Assembly: GCA_013314735.1 (NCBI GenBank)
Contig: JABUFD010000001.1
Span: forward strand, 1,178,001 to 1,242,000
Length of the DNA stretch: 64,000 bases
Direction of reading: 5' to 3'
Source of the DNA: Anaerolineae bacterium
GTDB lineage: Bacteria; Chloroflexota; Anaerolineae; Anaerolineales; Anaerolineaceae
In this document: one piece after another, positions 30,759 to 48,936 of the stretch
Numbering within the stretch: position 1 is the stretch's first letter
How the letters are laid out: every line of letters starts with the position of its first letter
Program-made: the position numbers and the translations under genes
Notes under the pieces: model-generated
What the model was told of the DNA's origin: nothing
What the model saw: the letters and a program-made list of their open reading frames with translations, nothing else
Databases searched by the model: none

Positions 30759-31109
30759 TTACTTACCGCTGGCTTTTGCAATCACTGCAGAAAAAGCAGC
30801 CGGATCCTGAACTGCCATATCCGCAAGCATTTTGCGGTTGATCGTAATGTCAGCCTGTTTCAGCAAATAAACCAGCTTGCTGTATGTCAAACCGTTCAAC
30901 CGGGCAGCTGCATTAATGCGCGCAATCCACAGACGACGCAAATCTCGCTTACGATTCCGGCGGTCACGGTATGCATAAAACAGGCTTTTCATCATCGCTT
31001 CGTTGGCGCGGCGGAAAAGCTTGCTCCTTGTGCCAAATTGACCTTTGGTCATTTTCAAAACTTTTTTGTGTTTTCGGTACCCTACTGGGCCACCTTTTAC
31101 TCTTGCCAT
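30759..31109 (-). CDS. rplT: 50S ribosomal protein L20
   Basis: A 116-residue ribosomal protein that binds 23S rRNA early in large-subunit assembly. It starts [16 protein letters not shown] and contains [20 protein letters not shown] and [15 protein letters not shown], all typical of L20. It is the last gene of the infC-rpmI-rplT operon and ends at a strong terminator. In other bacteria L20 represses this operon by binding mRNA; no such site was identified here. Confidence 0.97.
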
Positions 31110-43876: not shown

Positions 43877-44848
43877 TCAGCCGCCACCCTCCTCAACTGC
43901 CCCGCCTTCGCCCTCTGCGCATTTCTGCCTCGCCAACTCCAACTGGTCATAGAGTCCTTCAACGCTGGAATCCATGGTATATGCTGTCTCATAATAAACC
44001 TGTGAATCACAAAATTCATTGGCATTGAACAATTGTTCCGCATACCCCAGATTGGCCAGCCTGTACCGTTCTGTTGCAGTGTACCCACCATCATGCAGGT
44101 TCGGAAGAGCCTGGTAAACCAGGGAAAAATAATTAATCACCTGGCTCCAGTCTACTTCCCAGAAACTGGCACCGGTGACATAATAACGGGCAAATGTTCG
44201 GTAGCTATTGGCTTCAACATCGAGCAGGCCAAATCGTTCGGCGATCGAAAGGTCGTACATACCGCCTTCGAGATTGCCGTCATATAATATTTTTTGGACA
44301 CCCATATTCCGGTATCCCATATAATACATACCGTCAATTTTCGCCGGTTGGTAATCAGGGGCAATATACCTTAACTGATCCAGCGTGCTGATGGCAGCTT
44401 CCCAGTTTTCGGCTGCCAATAAATCGCCAGCTTCCGCAAACAATTCCTCACGGTTTCGCATATCTGGAGTGGCGGTAATTTCCGGCATGGGTGTCACTGT
44501 CGGCACAACAGAAACTGCAGTTGGCTGTGAAGAGGTGGCCGCGCCCATCATTGCTTCTTGCAACCGGCTTTGTGCTTCCGGGAATTGGGGATCCAATTGT
44601 ATGACATACTCAAAACGTTTTTGGGCAGTGGCATAACGACCAGCCTCCAGATCAAGCAATCCCAATTGATATTGTGCGGATGCCGAAAGCGCTACCTGGC
44701 TCCGGTAATTATTCATTCGAATGTCCAATCCCGCCTGGTAGCCGATATACGTACCAATCAATCCCACCAGGAGAATTACACCCAGCCCGAACAGGACAAC
44801 CCTCACTCTTCTGTTTTGCTTTTTACTTTTCACTTCATGATCTGCCAC
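43877..44848 (-). CDS. Membrane-anchored TPR protein
   Basis: A 323-residue protein of unknown role. A basic N-terminus leads to one membrane helix (VVLFGLGVILLVGLIGTYIG, about residues 17-36). Tetratricopeptide-like repeats follow (SAQYQLGLLDLEAGRYATAQ near residue 57; a second set between about 135 and 310), with a low-complexity Thr/Pro link between. It probably acts outside the membrane as a protein-binding scaffold. GTG 44848 is chosen because GGAGT lies six bases upstream; a TTG at 44881 would have none. Its stop abuts that of the convergent rimO. Confidence 0.7.
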   Translation of the reverse strand: MADHEVKSKKQNRRVRVVLFGLGVILLVGLIGTYIGYQAGLDIRMNNYRSQVALSASAQYQLGLLDLEAGRYATAQKRFEYVIQLDPQFPEAQSRLQEAMMGAATSSQPTAVSVVPTVTPMPEITATPDMRNREELFAEAGDLLAAENWEAAISTLDQLRYIAPDYQPAKIDGMYYMGYRNMGVQKILYDGNLEGGMYDLSIAERFGLLDVEANSYRTFARYYVTGASFWEVDWSQVINYFSLVYQALPNLHDGGYTATERYRLANLGYAEQLFNANEFCDSQVYYETAYTMDSSVEGLYDQLELARQKCAEGEGGAVEEGGG

Positions 44849-44986
44849 TGTCTCACTCCGCGACGAACCAATTAACCACAATACCGCCTCATTATAACCG
44901 ATTCCATTCTATACCGCTTTTTTGGAGGTGGCGTATCGGTTCATCATCATATGATCGAGTATTGATCGCAAAATATCCTGCGCAGA

Positions 44987-45047
44987 TTGTCATTTGTCGC
45001 TATTTGTCTTAAAATGTCTTGACCCTTGTTAATAAATTGATTAAACT
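44987..45047 (+). promoter_or_regulatory. Candidate promoters for the leader ORF/ABC exporter operon
   Basis: Two overlapping options are visible. One is TTGTCA (44987-44992), a 17-nt spacer and TAAAAT (45010-45015). The other is TTGACC (45019-45024), 17 nt and TAAACT (45042-45047). Both place the transcript start before the leader ORF at 45088. The stretch 44849-44986 between the divergent genes shows nothing else. Confidence 0.55.
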
Positions 45048-45080
45048 CACACAGGAATCAAAAAAAAAATTAAGCAAAGG

Positions 45081-45233
45081 AGGCACAATGATGAGCAAAA
45101 AAGCATACGGAAAATCAATGCATTGTCGTATTGTGCCTGGAGGAATGGTACGCCCAGTAAATCATTGACTGGATACCTGAATCGCCATATAAGAAGACTC
45201 CGCCGGTACAATAAGATTGCCTGCGGTTTTTTT
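45081..45233 (+). promoter_or_regulatory. Putative translation-dependent transcription attenuator
   Basis: Four segments give exclusive pairings. Segment 1 (AGGCACAAT, 45081-45089, overlapping the leader ORF's ribosome-binding site and start) pairs perfectly with segment 2 (ATTGTGCCT, 45130-45138). Segment 2, extended to 45144, also pairs with segment 3 (45199-45212, CTCCGCCGGTACAAT region): eight continuous pairs, one bulge, then five more around one mismatch; three further pairs extend it outward. Segment 3 (CCGCCGG, 45200-45206) pairs with segment 4 (CCTGCGG, 45220-45226) before seven T, forming a terminator. A ribosome stalled early would free segment 2 and prevent termination. Confidence 0.7.
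45088..45168 (+). CDS. 26-residue leader peptide of the ABC exporter operon
   Basis: A short ORF begins with paired ATGs at 45088/45091 and has a strong ribosome-binding site (AAAGGAGG) 4-7 nt upstream, stronger than that of most genes here. The peptide starts MMSKKAYGKS and ends GGMVRPVNH, with no signal peptide or known domain. Codons 15-19 (Ile-Val-Pro-Gly-Gly) make up the switch segment of the attenuator. Its likely role is to let translation speed decide transcription into the exporter genes, like the BmrB leader of B. subtilis; the peptide itself is not similar to anything I recall. Confidence 0.65.
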   Translation: MMSKKAYGKSMHCRIVPGGMVRPVNH

Positions 45234-45293
45234 GTGTTGTTCAGCTGAAAGCGGTGTGATTGGAAGAAAACAGAAAACGTTTGGGAGTGATAC

Positions 45294-47105
45294 ATGAAAG
45301 TAAGTAAAGAAAAAGAATTTAATTTACAAAATATCGTTGGCGCCAGGAAAATTCGCGCATTAATGTATATGATGCATGGATATGAGCTGAAGTATTTCCT
45401 GGCCGCGGTTGCCATTGCGATCTCATCAATGTCGCGAACTGCAACTTATTTAATTCTGCAGTATTTCATCGATGACTACCTGACAATGCATACAGCCCAG
45501 TTCGGTCTGGCCTGGATTGCCCTGTCATTCGTCATTCTGGCGCTATTAACAGGTGTCACCAGTTATGTCAGCGGGAAATTCACGGCGGAAACGGCTGAAG
45601 GTACCACCCGGCGTTTGCGTGATTACTTGTTTGACCATCTTCAACACCTGCCATTTATGTATCATAACCAGACAGATACAGGTGAGATGATTCAGCGCTC
45701 AACATCAGATGTTGACACCCTCCGCCGTTTTTATGCCAATAATGGGATCGAATTAATTCGCACTGTGATTTTATTCGCAGTGAACTTTGGCGCAATCGCT
45801 TCCTTGAACTTGAGGCTGGCATTGATCTCCATCATCGTCATGCCGATCATTGTCGCGGTATCGGCTGTGTTTTTCAAACGAATTGGAAAGGCCTACGAAA
45901 AGTACCAGGAGAAGGAAGCAGCGCTTTCAACCACACTCCAGGAGAACCTGTCTGGTGTACGCGTTGTGAAAGCATTTGCCAGGCAGCAATATGAGATCGA
46001 AAAGTTTGATGCCAATAATGTCGAAAAATACCAGTCAGGTCGCAGGTTGAACTTGATGCACGCAATGTTCTGGCCGATGTCTGACCTGATCTGTGGTGCC
46101 CAAATGCTGGTTGGCTTCCTGATTGGCGGTACCATGGCTATCAATGGCACGATCACAGTTGGTACCTATATGGCTTACGCCGGCCTCATTGGTTGGATTA
46201 TTTGGCCAATGCGTAACCTGGGCCGGTTAATTGTGGAGGTTTCCCGCGGCTTTGTTTCCTTTGACCGTGTGACTGAGATCATCAAAAATAATCGTGAACC
46301 CCTTGATGAAGGGGATTACACCCCCGACAAGGTTGAAGGGAAGCTGGTTTTTAACGATGTCGGGTTTTCTTATGAAGATGGTGTGCCTGTACTGGAGCAA
46401 ATCTCTTTCGATGTTCAGCCAGGCCAATCTGTTGCACTGTTGGGGTCAACAGGATCCGGGAAAACAACACTCGTCAACCTTCTGCCCCGGTTTTTCGAAT
46501 ATACAACTGGCTCAATAACTCTGGATGGTGTGGAATTGAAGCGATATCCGCGCAAAATATTACGCCAACATATTGGAACAGTTGAACAGGAACCTTTCCT
46601 TTTTTCACGTACCATACGGGAAAATATCCTGTATGGCGTGGGCAAACATGTTTCGGAAGAAGAGATGATCGAGGCAGCCAAGGCAGCTGCCATACACGAT
46701 GTAATCCTTACTTTCCCAAACGGCTATGATACCATGGTCGGAGAACGGGGCGTTACCCTTTCAGGCGGCCAGAAACAACGCGTCGCCATCGCCAGAACAC
46801 TGCTGAAGAACCCGAAAATTCTGGTCATGGACGATTCAACTTCCTCGGTGGATACCGAAACAGAATCACAAATCCGGGAAGCACTCGATAACCTGATGGA
46901 AAACCGTACAACATTCATCATCGCCCATCGCATCCAATCGATCATGAACGCTGACCAGATCCTGGTGCTGGATGATAAAAAAATCATTCAGGCCGGCCAG
47001 CATGAGCAGTTGCTGCAGGAAGAGGAAGGGATGTATCGGCACATTTTTGATATTCAAACACGGATTGAAGAAGAATTAAAAAAGGAGATCGAAAGTGTCA
47101 GTTAA
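45294..47105 (+). CDS. ABC exporter half-transporter with degenerate ATP site
   Basis: A 603-residue fused membrane-ATPase protein. Six transmembrane helices (about residues 35-325) precede the ATPase domain. Walker A is GSTGSGKTT (about 384), the signature LSGGQKQR (about 488) is intact, but Walker B reads ILVMDDSTSS, with Asp where the catalytic Glu should be. It should pair with the next product, contributing the intact signature to the active site and the dead Walker B to the degenerate site. This matches heterodimeric multidrug exporters (BmrCD, LmrCD, TM287/288). GGGAG precedes the ATG. Expression is probably governed by the upstream attenuator. Confidence 0.92.
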   Translation: MKVSKEKEFNLQNIVGARKIRALMYMMHGYELKYFLAAVAIAISSMSRTATYLILQYFIDDYLTMHTAQFGLAWIALSFVILALLTGVTSYVSGKFTAETAEGTTRRLRDYLFDHLQHLPFMYHNQTDTGEMIQRSTSDVDTLRRFYANNGIELIRTVILFAVNFGAIASLNLRLALISIIVMPIIVAVSAVFFKRIGKAYEKYQEKEAALSTTLQENLSGVRVVKAFARQQYEIEKFDANNVEKYQSGRRLNLMHAMFWPMSDLICGAQMLVGFLIGGTMAINGTITVGTYMAYAGLIGWIIWPMRNLGRLIVEVSRGFVSFDRVTEIIKNNREPLDEGDYTPDKVEGKLVFNDVGFSYEDGVPVLEQISFDVQPGQSVALLGSTGSGKTTLVNLLPRFFEYTTGSITLDGVELKRYPRKILRQHIGTVEQEPFLFSRTIRENILYGVGKHVSEEEMIEAAKAAAIHDVILTFPNGYDTMVGERGVTLSGGQKQRVAIARTLLKNPKILVMDDSTSSVDTETESQIREALDNLMENRTTFIIAHRIQSIMNADQILVLDDKKIIQAGQHEQLLQEEEGMYRHIFDIQTRIEEELKKEIESVS

Positions 47106-48936
47106 CTATTTTGAGGAAGAAGAATTCTCGACAGAATTCAATGGAAAGACGATCCTTCGTCTGCTCAAACAACTGAAACCCCACTGGTTGTATATGGCCG
47201 GTGTTGGGGTATCGATAGCAGCTGTTGCGCTGGCTGATAATGTATTCACCCTATTAAACAAACAACTGATTGATAATGGCATTATTGCTGGAAATCCTGA
47301 AGTGATCAAGTCTGTCCTGCTCAAGTATGGCGGACTGACCATCATGCAGGCATTCATGGTGTTCGGCTTTATCTACCTGTTGGGTTTGGTCGGCGAAAAA
47401 GTGCAATATAGCCTGCGCCAGCATCTGTTTAACCACCTACAGCGGTTGTCGCTATCATATTACAGCGTAACACCGGTAGGTTGGATCATTTCACGCGTTA
47501 CATCGGATGTCGGCCGTGTGTCAGACCTTTTAACCTGGGGGATATTGGATACCACCTGGGGCATCCTCAACATTTCCATTGCGTTGGTATTTATGATGAC
47601 CATCAACTGGCGAATGGCGTTAATTGTTTTGCTGTTTGTACCGGTACTGGTATTTGTGGCGGTCAAATTCCGTTCCAAAATTCTAGCGCAATATCGTGAG
47701 GTGCGAAAACAGAACTCGAAGATCACCGGGCAATACAACGAGATGATCACAGGTGTACGGGTCATCAAATCCCTCGGCCGCGAGAAACAGAGTCTGGACG
47801 AATTTAAAGTCGAAACCAGTGCCATGTACCGGGCATCTGTTCGCGCCGCCATCCTCAGCGCTCTTTTCCTGCCATCCATCCAGTTTTTATCTTCATTTGC
47901 CCTGGCAGCGGTTATCTATTTCGCCGGTTGGCAATTTGATAACAACATCGGCGGACTGACGATTGGTGGCATTCAGGCATTTGTCTCGTATGTTACTTTT
48001 ATGTTATGGCCCATTTTTGATATGGCACGCATCTTCGCGGAAATGCAGATGGCAGTGGCATCTGCTGAACGTATTTTTTCGTTGATCGATTCGGTCCCAA
48101 CAATCACCAATGCAGACAATGCCACGGATCCCGGCTCGATTGCCCAGGACATCACCTTTGAGAACGTCACATTCTGGTATGACGATGATGCAGAGAAAAC
48201 TCCTGTGCTGAAAGATTTTAACCTGACCGTGAGAAAAGGTGAAACCATTGCTCTCGTTGGTCCTACCGGCGGCGGAAAGACCACCACGGTAAACCTGCTG
48301 GCCCGGTTCTACGAGCCCAAACAAGGTACCATAAAAATCGGTGACCGGGATTATCGTGATTACACGTTGCATTCAATTCACTCCCGCCTGGGTGTGGTTT
48401 TACAAACCCCCCATCTTTTCTCTGGCAGCGTTCGCGAGAACATCCGTTATGGCCGGCTTGACGCAACCAATGAAGAAATTGAAGAGGCCGCAAAATTGGC
48501 TGGCGCGCATGAATTTATCATGAAAATGCCAAAACAGTATGAAGAAGAGGTAGGCGAAAGCGGTAACCTGTTATCGGTTGGACAAAAACAATTGATCAGC
48601 CTGGCGCGCGCCATCCTTGCCGATCCGGAAATTTTCATTATGGACGAAGCCACGAGTTCAGTCGATACGCTGACCGAAGCGCTGATCCAGAAAGCGATGG
48701 ACCGATTGCTGGAAAAATGCACAAGCTTCGTAATCGCCCACCGCTTATCCACCATAAAAAATGCAGACCGTATCCTCGTTATCGAAGAAGGTCAAATCAA
48801 GGAAATGGGGACACACGCCGAATTAATCAAGCGAGGCGGAAAATACTTCCAGTTATATACCAAGCAATTCCGCCACCAGATGGAAGCAGCACTGGACCCC
48901 TATGCCAGGGCAGAAACACTCCCTGTCGCTGATTAA
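47095..48936 (+). CDS. ABC exporter half-transporter with intact catalytic Glu
   Basis: A 613-residue partner of the preceding protein. The membrane domain (about residues 25-330) is followed by Walker A GPTGGGKTT (about 388), a degenerate signature LLSVGQKQL in place of LSGGQ and an intact Walker B IFIMDEATSS with the catalytic Glu. The asymmetry is complementary to its partner, so the dimer has one active and one degenerate ATP site. The GTG start overlaps the preceding gene by 11 nt, with AAGGAGA upstream, which indicates coupled translation and equal amounts. The substrate is probably a drug or lipid-like molecule. Confidence 0.92.
   Translation: MSVNYFEEEEFSTEFNGKTILRLLKQLKPHWLYMAGVGVSIAAVALADNVFTLLNKQLIDNGIIAGNPEVIKSVLLKYGGLTIMQAFMVFGFIYLLGLVGEKVQYSLRQHLFNHLQRLSLSYYSVTPVGWIISRVTSDVGRVSDLLTWGILDTTWGILNISIALVFMMTINWRMALIVLLFVPVLVFVAVKFRSKILAQYREVRKQNSKITGQYNEMITGVRVIKSLGREKQSLDEFKVETSAMYRASVRAAILSALFLPSIQFLSSFALAAVIYFAGWQFDNNIGGLTIGGIQAFVSYVTFMLWPIFDMARIFAEMQMAVASAERIFSLIDSVPTITNADNATDPGSIAQDITFENVTFWYDDDAEKTPVLKDFNLTVRKGETIALVGPTGGGKTTTVNLLARFYEPKQGTIKIGDRDYRDYTLHSIHSRLGVVLQTPHLFSGSVRENIRYGRLDATNEEIEEAAKLAGAHEFIMKMPKQYEEEVGESGNLLSVGQKQLISLARAILADPEIFIMDEATSSVDTLTEALIQKAMDRLLEKCTSFVIAHRLSTIKNADRILVIEEGQIKEMGTHAELIKRGGKYFQLYTKQFRHQMEAALDPYARAETLPVAD

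Follow-up and report, generated by a model that had tools for sequence, protein, structure and literature searches.

Trp-type attenuators are built on three mutually exclusive pairings, 1:2, 2:3 and 3:4, and their leader stop codon is usually placed so that the terminating ribosome covers segment 2. In the WhiB7 regulon of Actinobacteria, efflux, ABC-F and acetyltransferase genes are placed under one transcription factor that acts under translation stress.

Resistance-gene attenuators are common in Gram-positive bacteria (PMC5418344), so the mechanism class considered here is already known. Termination ahead of the bmrBCD operon of Bacillus subtilis is relieved by lincomycin, erythromycin and chloramphenicol, and lincomycin induction requires translation of the leader, with the anti-antiterminator role of bmrB left unclear (Reilman et al. 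2014, PMC4191407). The rli80/hflXr locus of Listeria is induced by lincomycin and erythromycin (PMC6310831). Start codons of known leader ORFs are likely the sites at which lincosamides, pleuromutilins and streptogramin A hold the ribosome; at toiL, tetracycline and retapamulin do so, with erythromycin and others acting further downstream, and whiB7 is preceded by a multi-drug uORF (PMC12121999).

Here we describe an element ahead of an ABC exporter operon in a stretch of 64,000 nucleotides of Anaerolineae DNA, which we call the window and along which all positions are counted. The features are as follows.

43877–44881 (−), divergent gene with a TPR match (Pfam), on the other flank of the element region 45019–45293
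44987–45015, second promoter candidate, TTGTCA-17-TAAAAT (promoter scan, score 10, higher than the 9 of the promoter at 45019–45047)
45019–45047 (+), predicted promoter, TTGACC-17-TAAACT (promoter scan, score 9), ending 40 nt upstream of ATG 45088
45076–45083 (+), Shine–Dalgarno sequence of the leader ORF, AAAGGAGG
45081–45089 (+), segment 1, AGGCACAAT, spanning the end of the Shine–Dalgarno sequence and the first start codon, ATG 45088
45088 or 45091 to 45168 (+), leader ORF MMSKKAYGKSMHCRIVPGGMVRPVNH, of 26 or 25 aa, respectively, depending on which of the two ATG codons is used
45130–45138 (+), segment 2, ATTGTGCCT, in frame with the leader as codons Ile-Val-Pro
45200–45226 (+), intrinsic terminator hairpin, CCGCCGGTACAATAAGATTGCCTGCGG, −9.2 kcal/mol
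45205–45212 (+), segment 3, GGTACAAT, inner 5′ arm of the terminator
45227–45233 (+), U-tract, T7
45294–47105 (+), ABC exporter half 1, Pfam ABC_membrane and ABC_tran, with a degenerate Walker B motif, VMDDSTS (by eye)
47095–48936 (+), ABC exporter half 2, with a canonical Walker B motif, MDEATS, and signature LSVGQ (by eye)

A sequence-only reading of this DNA had proposed a three-way RNA switch at this place. Its claim of perfect complementarity between 45081–45089 and 45130–45138 was borne out on direct reading, with 9 of 9 positions pairing in the 1:2 helix. The second pairing, which it had drawn over 45199–45212, indeed exists and is not perfect: the 2:3 core comprises 8 bp (seven Watson–Crick and one G-U) between 45130–45137 and 45205–45212, plus short broken extensions. 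Segment 2 pairs either with segment 1 or with segment 3, and the terminator is 3:4. The terminator stem followed by seven T residues was also found as described, and this intrinsic terminator (45200–45233) stands ahead of the exporter gene; a simple terminator scan of the window did not include the 45200–45226 hairpin in its list. At the level of sequence, a translatable leader ORF with a Shine–Dalgarno sequence is thereby placed between a promoter and a terminator, the arrangement of a ribosome-mediated attenuator.

The total folding energy of the element is unremarkable (z = −1.64, with 12 of 200 shuffles equally good). The triple complementarity was assessed by fixing segment 1 and the terminator arm, dinucleotide-shuffling the intervening sequence 1000 times and scoring 14-mers both ways. 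A single shuffle in 1000 equalled the window 14-mer (−15.1 and −16.2 kcal/mol; shuffled mean −8.0, SD 1.5).

The three pairings are those of trp-type attenuators, and the terminating ribosome covers segment 2 in 71 of 74 leaders of the family to which, as described below, the element belongs. The family differs from the trp type in having no regulatory amino-acid codons and in using the ribosome-binding site itself as segment 1. In architecture the window resembles bmrB, with a leader ORF, a terminator, an antiterminator and a predicted anti-antiterminator ahead of a heterodimeric ABC exporter; however, the bmrB terminator lies inside a 53-aa leader coding region, whereas that of the window begins 31 nt past the stop of the 26-aa ORF (stop 45168, terminator from 45200), and the anti-antiterminator helix of the window's family co-varies and covers the ribosome-binding site (PMC4191407). 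The rli80 leader is similar in that a 14-aa leader ORF in an anti-antiterminator region is followed by an antiterminator and a terminator, but it carries an RLR macrolide motif, of which the window leader has none, and it is described as a single locus, as against the multi-copy homologous family found here (PMC6310831). With vmlR, cplR, vga(A) and toiL the proposed shared feature is a drug-held ribosome at the leader start codon that switches on the downstream gene, whereas the RNA architectures are different and toiL acts via translation and Rho (PMC12121999).

Judged from its sequence, the exporter downstream is a heterodimeric ABC exporter of the general BmrC/BmrD type, and the label "BmrCD-like" given to it by the sequence-only reading is right at that level. 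In comparisons with solved structures, half 1 matched TM_0288, YheI (BmrC) and TmrAB-type chains, and half 2 matched TmrAB-type, TM_0288 and YheH (BmrD) chains; the top scores for both halves went to long eukaryotic P-glycoprotein-type chains. The nearest exporter orthologues are at most 65% identical, the closest named relative being an Anaerolineaceae MAG (65%), and in the exporter tree the window protein forms a long branch (0.78) within the clade of its own family.

Folding of positions 45053–45233 was constrained with a ribosome footprint of −14 to +15 around the P-site codon, codons being numbered from ATG 45091. Without a ribosome, the predicted probabilities were 0.95 for 1:2 and 0.97 for 3:4. 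With a ribosome at codons 1, 2, 3 and 4, respectively, the probability of 2:3 became 0.98, 0.99, 0.91 and 0.78, and that of 3:4 fell to 0.01, 0.00, 0.08 and 0.19. At codon 5 the value for 2:3 was 0.27, and from codon 6 onward it was at most 0.14, with 3:4 at 0.57–0.98. Footprints of −12/+12 and −16/+18 gave the same picture at the first codons, with 2:3 at codon 4 of 0.56 and 0.93. The constrained folding thus makes antiterminator and terminator exclusive, with the choice set by ribosome position, as had been anticipated for 1:2 with 3:4 against 2:3 and for folding with and without a ribosome over segment 1 (antiterminator 0.78–0.99 with an early-codon ribosome, terminator 0.97 with none). As folded, the device would be on for a ribosome at about the first four codons.

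When the transcript was ended two bases into the U-tract, 2:3 still reached 0.94–0.98 for a ribosome at codons 1–4. In this shortened transcript the terminator was also weak with the ribosome at codons 18 and 20 (0.09–0.36), and at the end of the ORF (last two codons) it stood at 0.37–0.50, with 2:3 at 0.40–0.55. The predicted off state is therefore less sharp with a two-base U-tract than with the full one, and its firmness at the end of the ORF depends on where the transcript ends, because the terminator weakens there when the U-tract is shortened.

To place the element among relatives, we used covariance models. When 23 order-level leaders were aligned together with MAFFT (A1, A2), two terminator types came out one base out of register; these were aligned separately as A3 and A4, and R1, which consists of ten leaders of other families and does not include the window, was built from A4. 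R2 was built from 73 covariance-model matches of R1, also without the window. A5 and A6 are model-fitted alignments, A6 comprising 99 matches fitted to the structure; doubtful rows were kept in both (A5, L222 minus, L201 plus and L158 minus; A6, L201 plus and L115 minus). Note that L115, L120, L125 and L126 are among the training rows of R2, whose scores for these loci are not independent; R1, whose training set does not contain them, recovers all four as well (E = 1.3e-8 to 7.6e-4).

R1 gave a single match in the window, at 45078–45232 (14.8 bits, E = 0.021), and R2 matched the same place, 45078–45232, with 25.8 bits (E = 3.7e-5 in 64 kb), both aligning the 1:2 helix. The window therefore matches significantly a model built without it. 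Its segment 2 is also in frame as R-x-x-P codons: leader codons 45127–45138, CGT ATT GTG CCT (R-I-V-P), align with the R-S-A-P codons of the family, and leaders with RIAP (L214, L257 and L275) bridge the two forms. The element thus belongs to a multi-copy family and does not stand alone. A second R2 match in the window (30966–31098; 12.7 bits, E = 0.096) was dismissed as chance on reading of its sequence alone. Genome-scale searches, in which the first pass keeps few candidates, did not report the window copy, and those with R2 yielded a second copy in the window's own genome. Weak matches elsewhere in the phylum (L249–L251, L253 and L254; E = 0.003–0.01) had no plausible leader and, like L216, were left out of the tallies. 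Searching the exporter upstream regions with the leader peptide (tblastn) gave nothing useful besides the window itself.

Conservation in close relatives was one of the points on which the sequence-only reading had staked its interpretation, and in the nearest exporter orthologues the element is absent: of 89 exporter loci from the own family, not one reached E ≤ 0.1 with the family model (lowest E, 0.42; L020 lacks upstream sequence). The other genome examined from the genus (G111, 69% complete; the window's own genome is G000) has as its best match to the window exporter a protein far weaker than an orthologue (E = 4e-112). Conserved copies were instead found ahead of exporter orthologues in other families of the order, and ahead of other genes. 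In a sample of 400 genomes of the phylum, 25 from other families of the same order carry an exporter match; in one of these, G524, the contig ends just upstream of the exporter, hence 24 are usable, and the element layout was recognized in all 24 (L150, L153–L155, L157–L174, L178 and L183, the last judged by model matches only). These leaders show a promoter, a ribosome-binding site such as GGAGCGCACTC, a start codon, a leader of 22–34 codons and a terminator; they often end in SRSAPVDR or SRSAPIDR, and their terminators mostly contain GGCGCAC or GGTGCGC. Around the leader stop, just past segment 2, most of the L153–L173 exporter leaders (sister family, by eye) carry a small GACC/GGTC hairpin that the window does not.

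A set of 51 loci, in which exporter loci from beyond the own family predominate, gave nine matches at E ≤ 3e-5 (L183, L099, L112, L114, L115, L120, L125, L126 and L134), with the labels Ardenticatenales, Caldilineaceae, Anaerolineales and other Chloroflexota. Six exporter loci labelled Anaerolineales (L117, L119, L122, L127, L128 and L143) and four further orthologue loci at class or phylum level (L180–L182 and L185) gave no match. The match of L139, labelled Spirochaetales, is doubtful (E = 0.019), and its contig may have been misassigned. In the exporter tree, the presence of the element requires 8 changes, at least 6 of them on well-supported branches, and gain and loss therefore appear frequent. 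Of 147 own-family genomes, 97 contain an R2 match at E ≤ 0.5 and 87 at E ≤ 0.001; of the 400 genomes of the phylum, 48 do so at E ≤ 0.01, the 48 being split into 9 of the own family, 25 of other families of the order, 4 of other families of the class and 10 beyond it, these last being weak (E = 2e-5 to 0.007). Up to five R2 matches are present per genome.

Compensatory changes, which had been called for in all three pairings, were found in 1:2, 2:3 and the terminator across the wider family; the own-family exporter orthologues examined are without the element. The three segments co-vary across relatives, and the pairings are kept by compensatory change in relatives outside the own-family exporter orthologues. 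The window itself is an instance: relative to the family consensus, its segment 2 carries two substitutions (AGTGCGCC to ATTGTGCC), which are matched by the change in segment 1 (GGCGCACT to GGCACAAT) and likewise, both of them, by segment 3 (to GGTACAAT). When the partners of 28 elements were permuted, own partners gave −21.9 versus −18.8 kcal/mol for 1:2 and −21.5 versus −18.9 kcal/mol for 2:3, with 0 of 20,000 permutations as good in either case, kinship being ignored. A larger permutation test with an ungapped count over 80 elements, kinship again ignored, gave 0 of 1000 for 1:2 and 0 of 1000 for 2:3. In A6, changes on both sides were seen at 18 of 19 pairs (10 of 11 in helix 1:2 and 8 of 8 in the terminator), in an alignment fitted to the structure and with kinship ignored, and the covariation score was 0.368 versus 0.222 for shuffled data (0 of 500), subject to the same fitting. 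Two leaders form the helix over the ribosome-binding site from a different stretch, GGAATCATG with CATGATTC in L158 and AGGAGG with CCTCCT in L161. Unlike the permutation tests, a chimera control does not discriminate: members resemble one another so closely in segments 2 and 3 that pairing is also seen in 94% of 403 chimeras.

We assessed the switching of the family in a set of 81 elements, from which fifteen truncated or doubtful loci had been excluded beforehand and eight loci without a clean ORF or terminator call dropped. In a cut-transcript test, the RNA ended before the 3′ arm of the terminator. A 2:3 pairing of at least 5 bp was then predicted in 80 of 81 elements with the ribosome at the start and everything up to it masked, in 9 of 81 with the ribosome at the stop and in 54 of 81 with no ribosome. 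The counts for start- and stop-bound ribosomes therefore point to a common logic in which finished translation means termination and held-up translation means read-through. The 1:2 helix is a weak brake in many members, because 54 of 81 form 2:3 without any ribosome; masking segment 1 gains more than 2 bp of 2:3 in 40 of 81, and the brake would thus matter in some members and little in others. At full length and equilibrium, the terminator falls by more than 0.3 with a start-bound ribosome in 19 of 81 elements and the reverse occurs in 0 of 81; most family terminators are too stable for displacement at equilibrium, and the remaining elements would need to switch by kinetics. Few of the 81 are predicted to switch as clearly as the window, whose terminator falls from 0.94 to 0.02; with the ribosome at the stop the window terminator stands at 0.49.

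The leader stop lies 2–4 codons after the Pro codon of segment 2 in 71 of 74 leaders, and therefore a terminating ribosome masks segment 2. In the window the stop is 9 codons past segment 2, outside that range, and the window is predicted to rely on 1:2 more than most members do. The family promoter has its best match at 9 or more of 12 positions in 76 of 81 elements versus 8% of shuffles, at a median of 41 nt upstream of the leader start, close to the spacing of 40 nt for the promoter at 45019–45047, and with TAAACT as the most frequent −10 sequence. Tandem terminators are common (L217, L222–L225, L228, L233, L115, L120, L125 and L126), and the second may be a backup.

Genes behind the attenuators were classed over about 1.6 kb downstream of 63 further elements (L247, L259, L262, L265, L271 and L274 were left out), by BLAST to examples typed with Pfam and NCBIfam. 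GNAT genes of about 190-aa or 340-aa types follow 35 of the 63, ABC exporters 10, ABC-F genes 5 (one beside a GNAT gene) and RsgA-like GTPase genes 4, two of which are then followed by an RNHCP-like protein; 10 have other or unassigned genes. The three ABC-F proteins tested all score above the NCBIfam ribosomal-protection cut-off. The RsgA-like genes behind an attenuator (L231, L232, L213 and L243) are a side observation, and their position suggests that this RsgA paralogue may play a role in ribosome stress. A small gene of about 160 aa also recurs after the attenuator, usually before GNAT, in the own family (L256, L257, L264, L266, L273, L279 and others), with no Pfam match in the single example tested (L256). 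The second element of the window's own genome (L280, G000:C9:140961-141135, minus strand; 61.4 bits) is stronger than the window copy; its leader ends ...MFPCRSASTHR and is followed by a frame resembling, by eye, a methyltransferase of G111 and by a GNAT gene, and the arrangement in G111 of the same genus (L276) is similar.

From the anatomy, the pairings and their covariation, the homology to the family and the gene context described above, we infer ribosome stalling as the signal, the inducers and the direction of regulation. In the mechanism that we propose, transcription would begin ahead of the leader (at about 45053, should the promoter at 45019–45047 be the one in use), and the leader ORF would be translated behind RNA polymerase. 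With a ribosome past the first few codons, or with none loaded, either 1:2 would pair or the ribosome would cover segment 2; the terminator at 45200–45226 would then form and the exporter would be off. A ribosome held at codons 1–4, for instance because an inhibitor arrests initiation complexes or the formation of the first peptide bonds, would cover segment 1, whereupon 2:3 would pair, the terminator would be blocked and the exporter operon would be read. The three-way switch interpretation of the sequence-only reading is supported, and very probably the window element is a ribosome-mediated transcription attenuator, a diverged member of a family in Anaerolineae and relatives that follows trp/bmrB logic and senses early-codon stalls.

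Any hold-up at the first codons would give the same structure, and the physiological signal might then be amino-acid starvation or low initiation instead of drugs, much as whiB7 is induced by amino-acid starvation (PMC12121999). We regard such a general slowdown attenuator as unlikely, given that codons 1–6 of the window leader (MMSKKA) contain no run of more than two like residues and that the genes downstream are mostly of drug- or ribosome-stress types, not biosynthetic. The peptide itself could be the signal if the conserved leader C-terminus (RSAP, PCRSAPVHR and the like) stalled the ribosome, alone or with a drug. R-S-A-P is strongly conserved in many leaders, and its Arg is retained through several codons (CGG 27, CGT 21, CGA 8, CGC 5 and AGA 2 in 74 leaders), which leaves a role of the peptide possible. 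However, a ribosome stalled at RSAP would cover segment 2 and favour termination, and the window has RIVP, its changes tracking base pairing. The segment 2 motif, moreover, shares the reading frame of the leader start in 74 of 80 elements; among the six in which it does not, one (L239) is probably a wrong ORF call; in the remaining five the best motif match is in another frame (2 and 0 mismatches in L255 and L260, 4 each in L213, L232 and L243) and the leaders read SECAY, SECAC, WARL and others. In these five the pairing has outlived the peptide, and they may serve as natural tests of one against the other. An arrest-peptide sensor is accordingly quite improbable in our estimation.

A ligand-binding riboswitch or a protein-bound terminator, with the ORF incidental, would also be expected to have conserved covarying helices. 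It seems highly improbable here, as the conservation seen lies in the strands that pair, in the ribosome-binding site and in the terminator, without an aptamer-like core, and the motif keeps a fixed relation to the reading frame (74 of 80) and to the stop position (71 of 74). Rfam 15 at its curated gathering score gave 0 matches, both for the window and for 11 loci that carry related or candidate leaders, and a permissive scan of 44900–45400 returned two snoRNA matches and one RUF20 match, all below the cut-off. The low model score (25.8 bits), the place beside a long-branch exporter (0.78), the own-family orthologues examined without the element and the shifted stop codon would fit a window copy that has decayed, or that resembles the family by chance, with regulation lost. 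The compensated changes in both helices, the perfect 9-bp 1:2 pairing and the clear predicted switch (0.94 to 0.02) speak against decay, which we hold to be a small chance. The attenuator that senses early-codon stalls thus remains our preferred reading.

The literature searched, open-access papers only, yielded no description of a drug-sensing leader from Chloroflexota, in agreement with the sequence-only reading, which knew of none, and none of a shared RSAP leader; the Chloroflexi-1 motif is listed for Chloroflexus aggregans only (PMC2864571). What appears new is the multi-copy family of homologues, the role of the leader's ribosome-binding site as segment 1, and the regulon. As to the signal, drugs that hold the ribosome at codons 1–4 would be expected to induce and later-stalling drugs not; the predicted inducers are lincosamides, pleuromutilins and streptogramin A, with later-stalling macrolides predicted not to induce.

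With copies ahead of several antibiotic-stress operons within one genome, the family would form a regulon without a regulator protein. We think it moderately probable that an ancient, replicated family of ribosome-stall attenuators coordinates antibiotic-stress genes (exporters, ABC-F ribosome protection, GNAT acetyltransferases, RsgA and a methyltransferase) across Anaerolineae, as an RNA-only, distributed counterpart of the WhiB7 regulon in which each operon is equipped with its own sensor for ribosomes that are held within the first few codons, and one stall switches on the whole set. The list of target genes is similar to that of WhiB7; the difference is that each operon here has its own RNA sensor, whereas there a single transcription factor serves all. 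With the model and the recurrent promoter, further members can readily be found and annotated. If the proposal is true, a whole antibiotic-stress regulon would be wired by copies of one small RNA device, and Chloroflexota would gain a testable resistance response.
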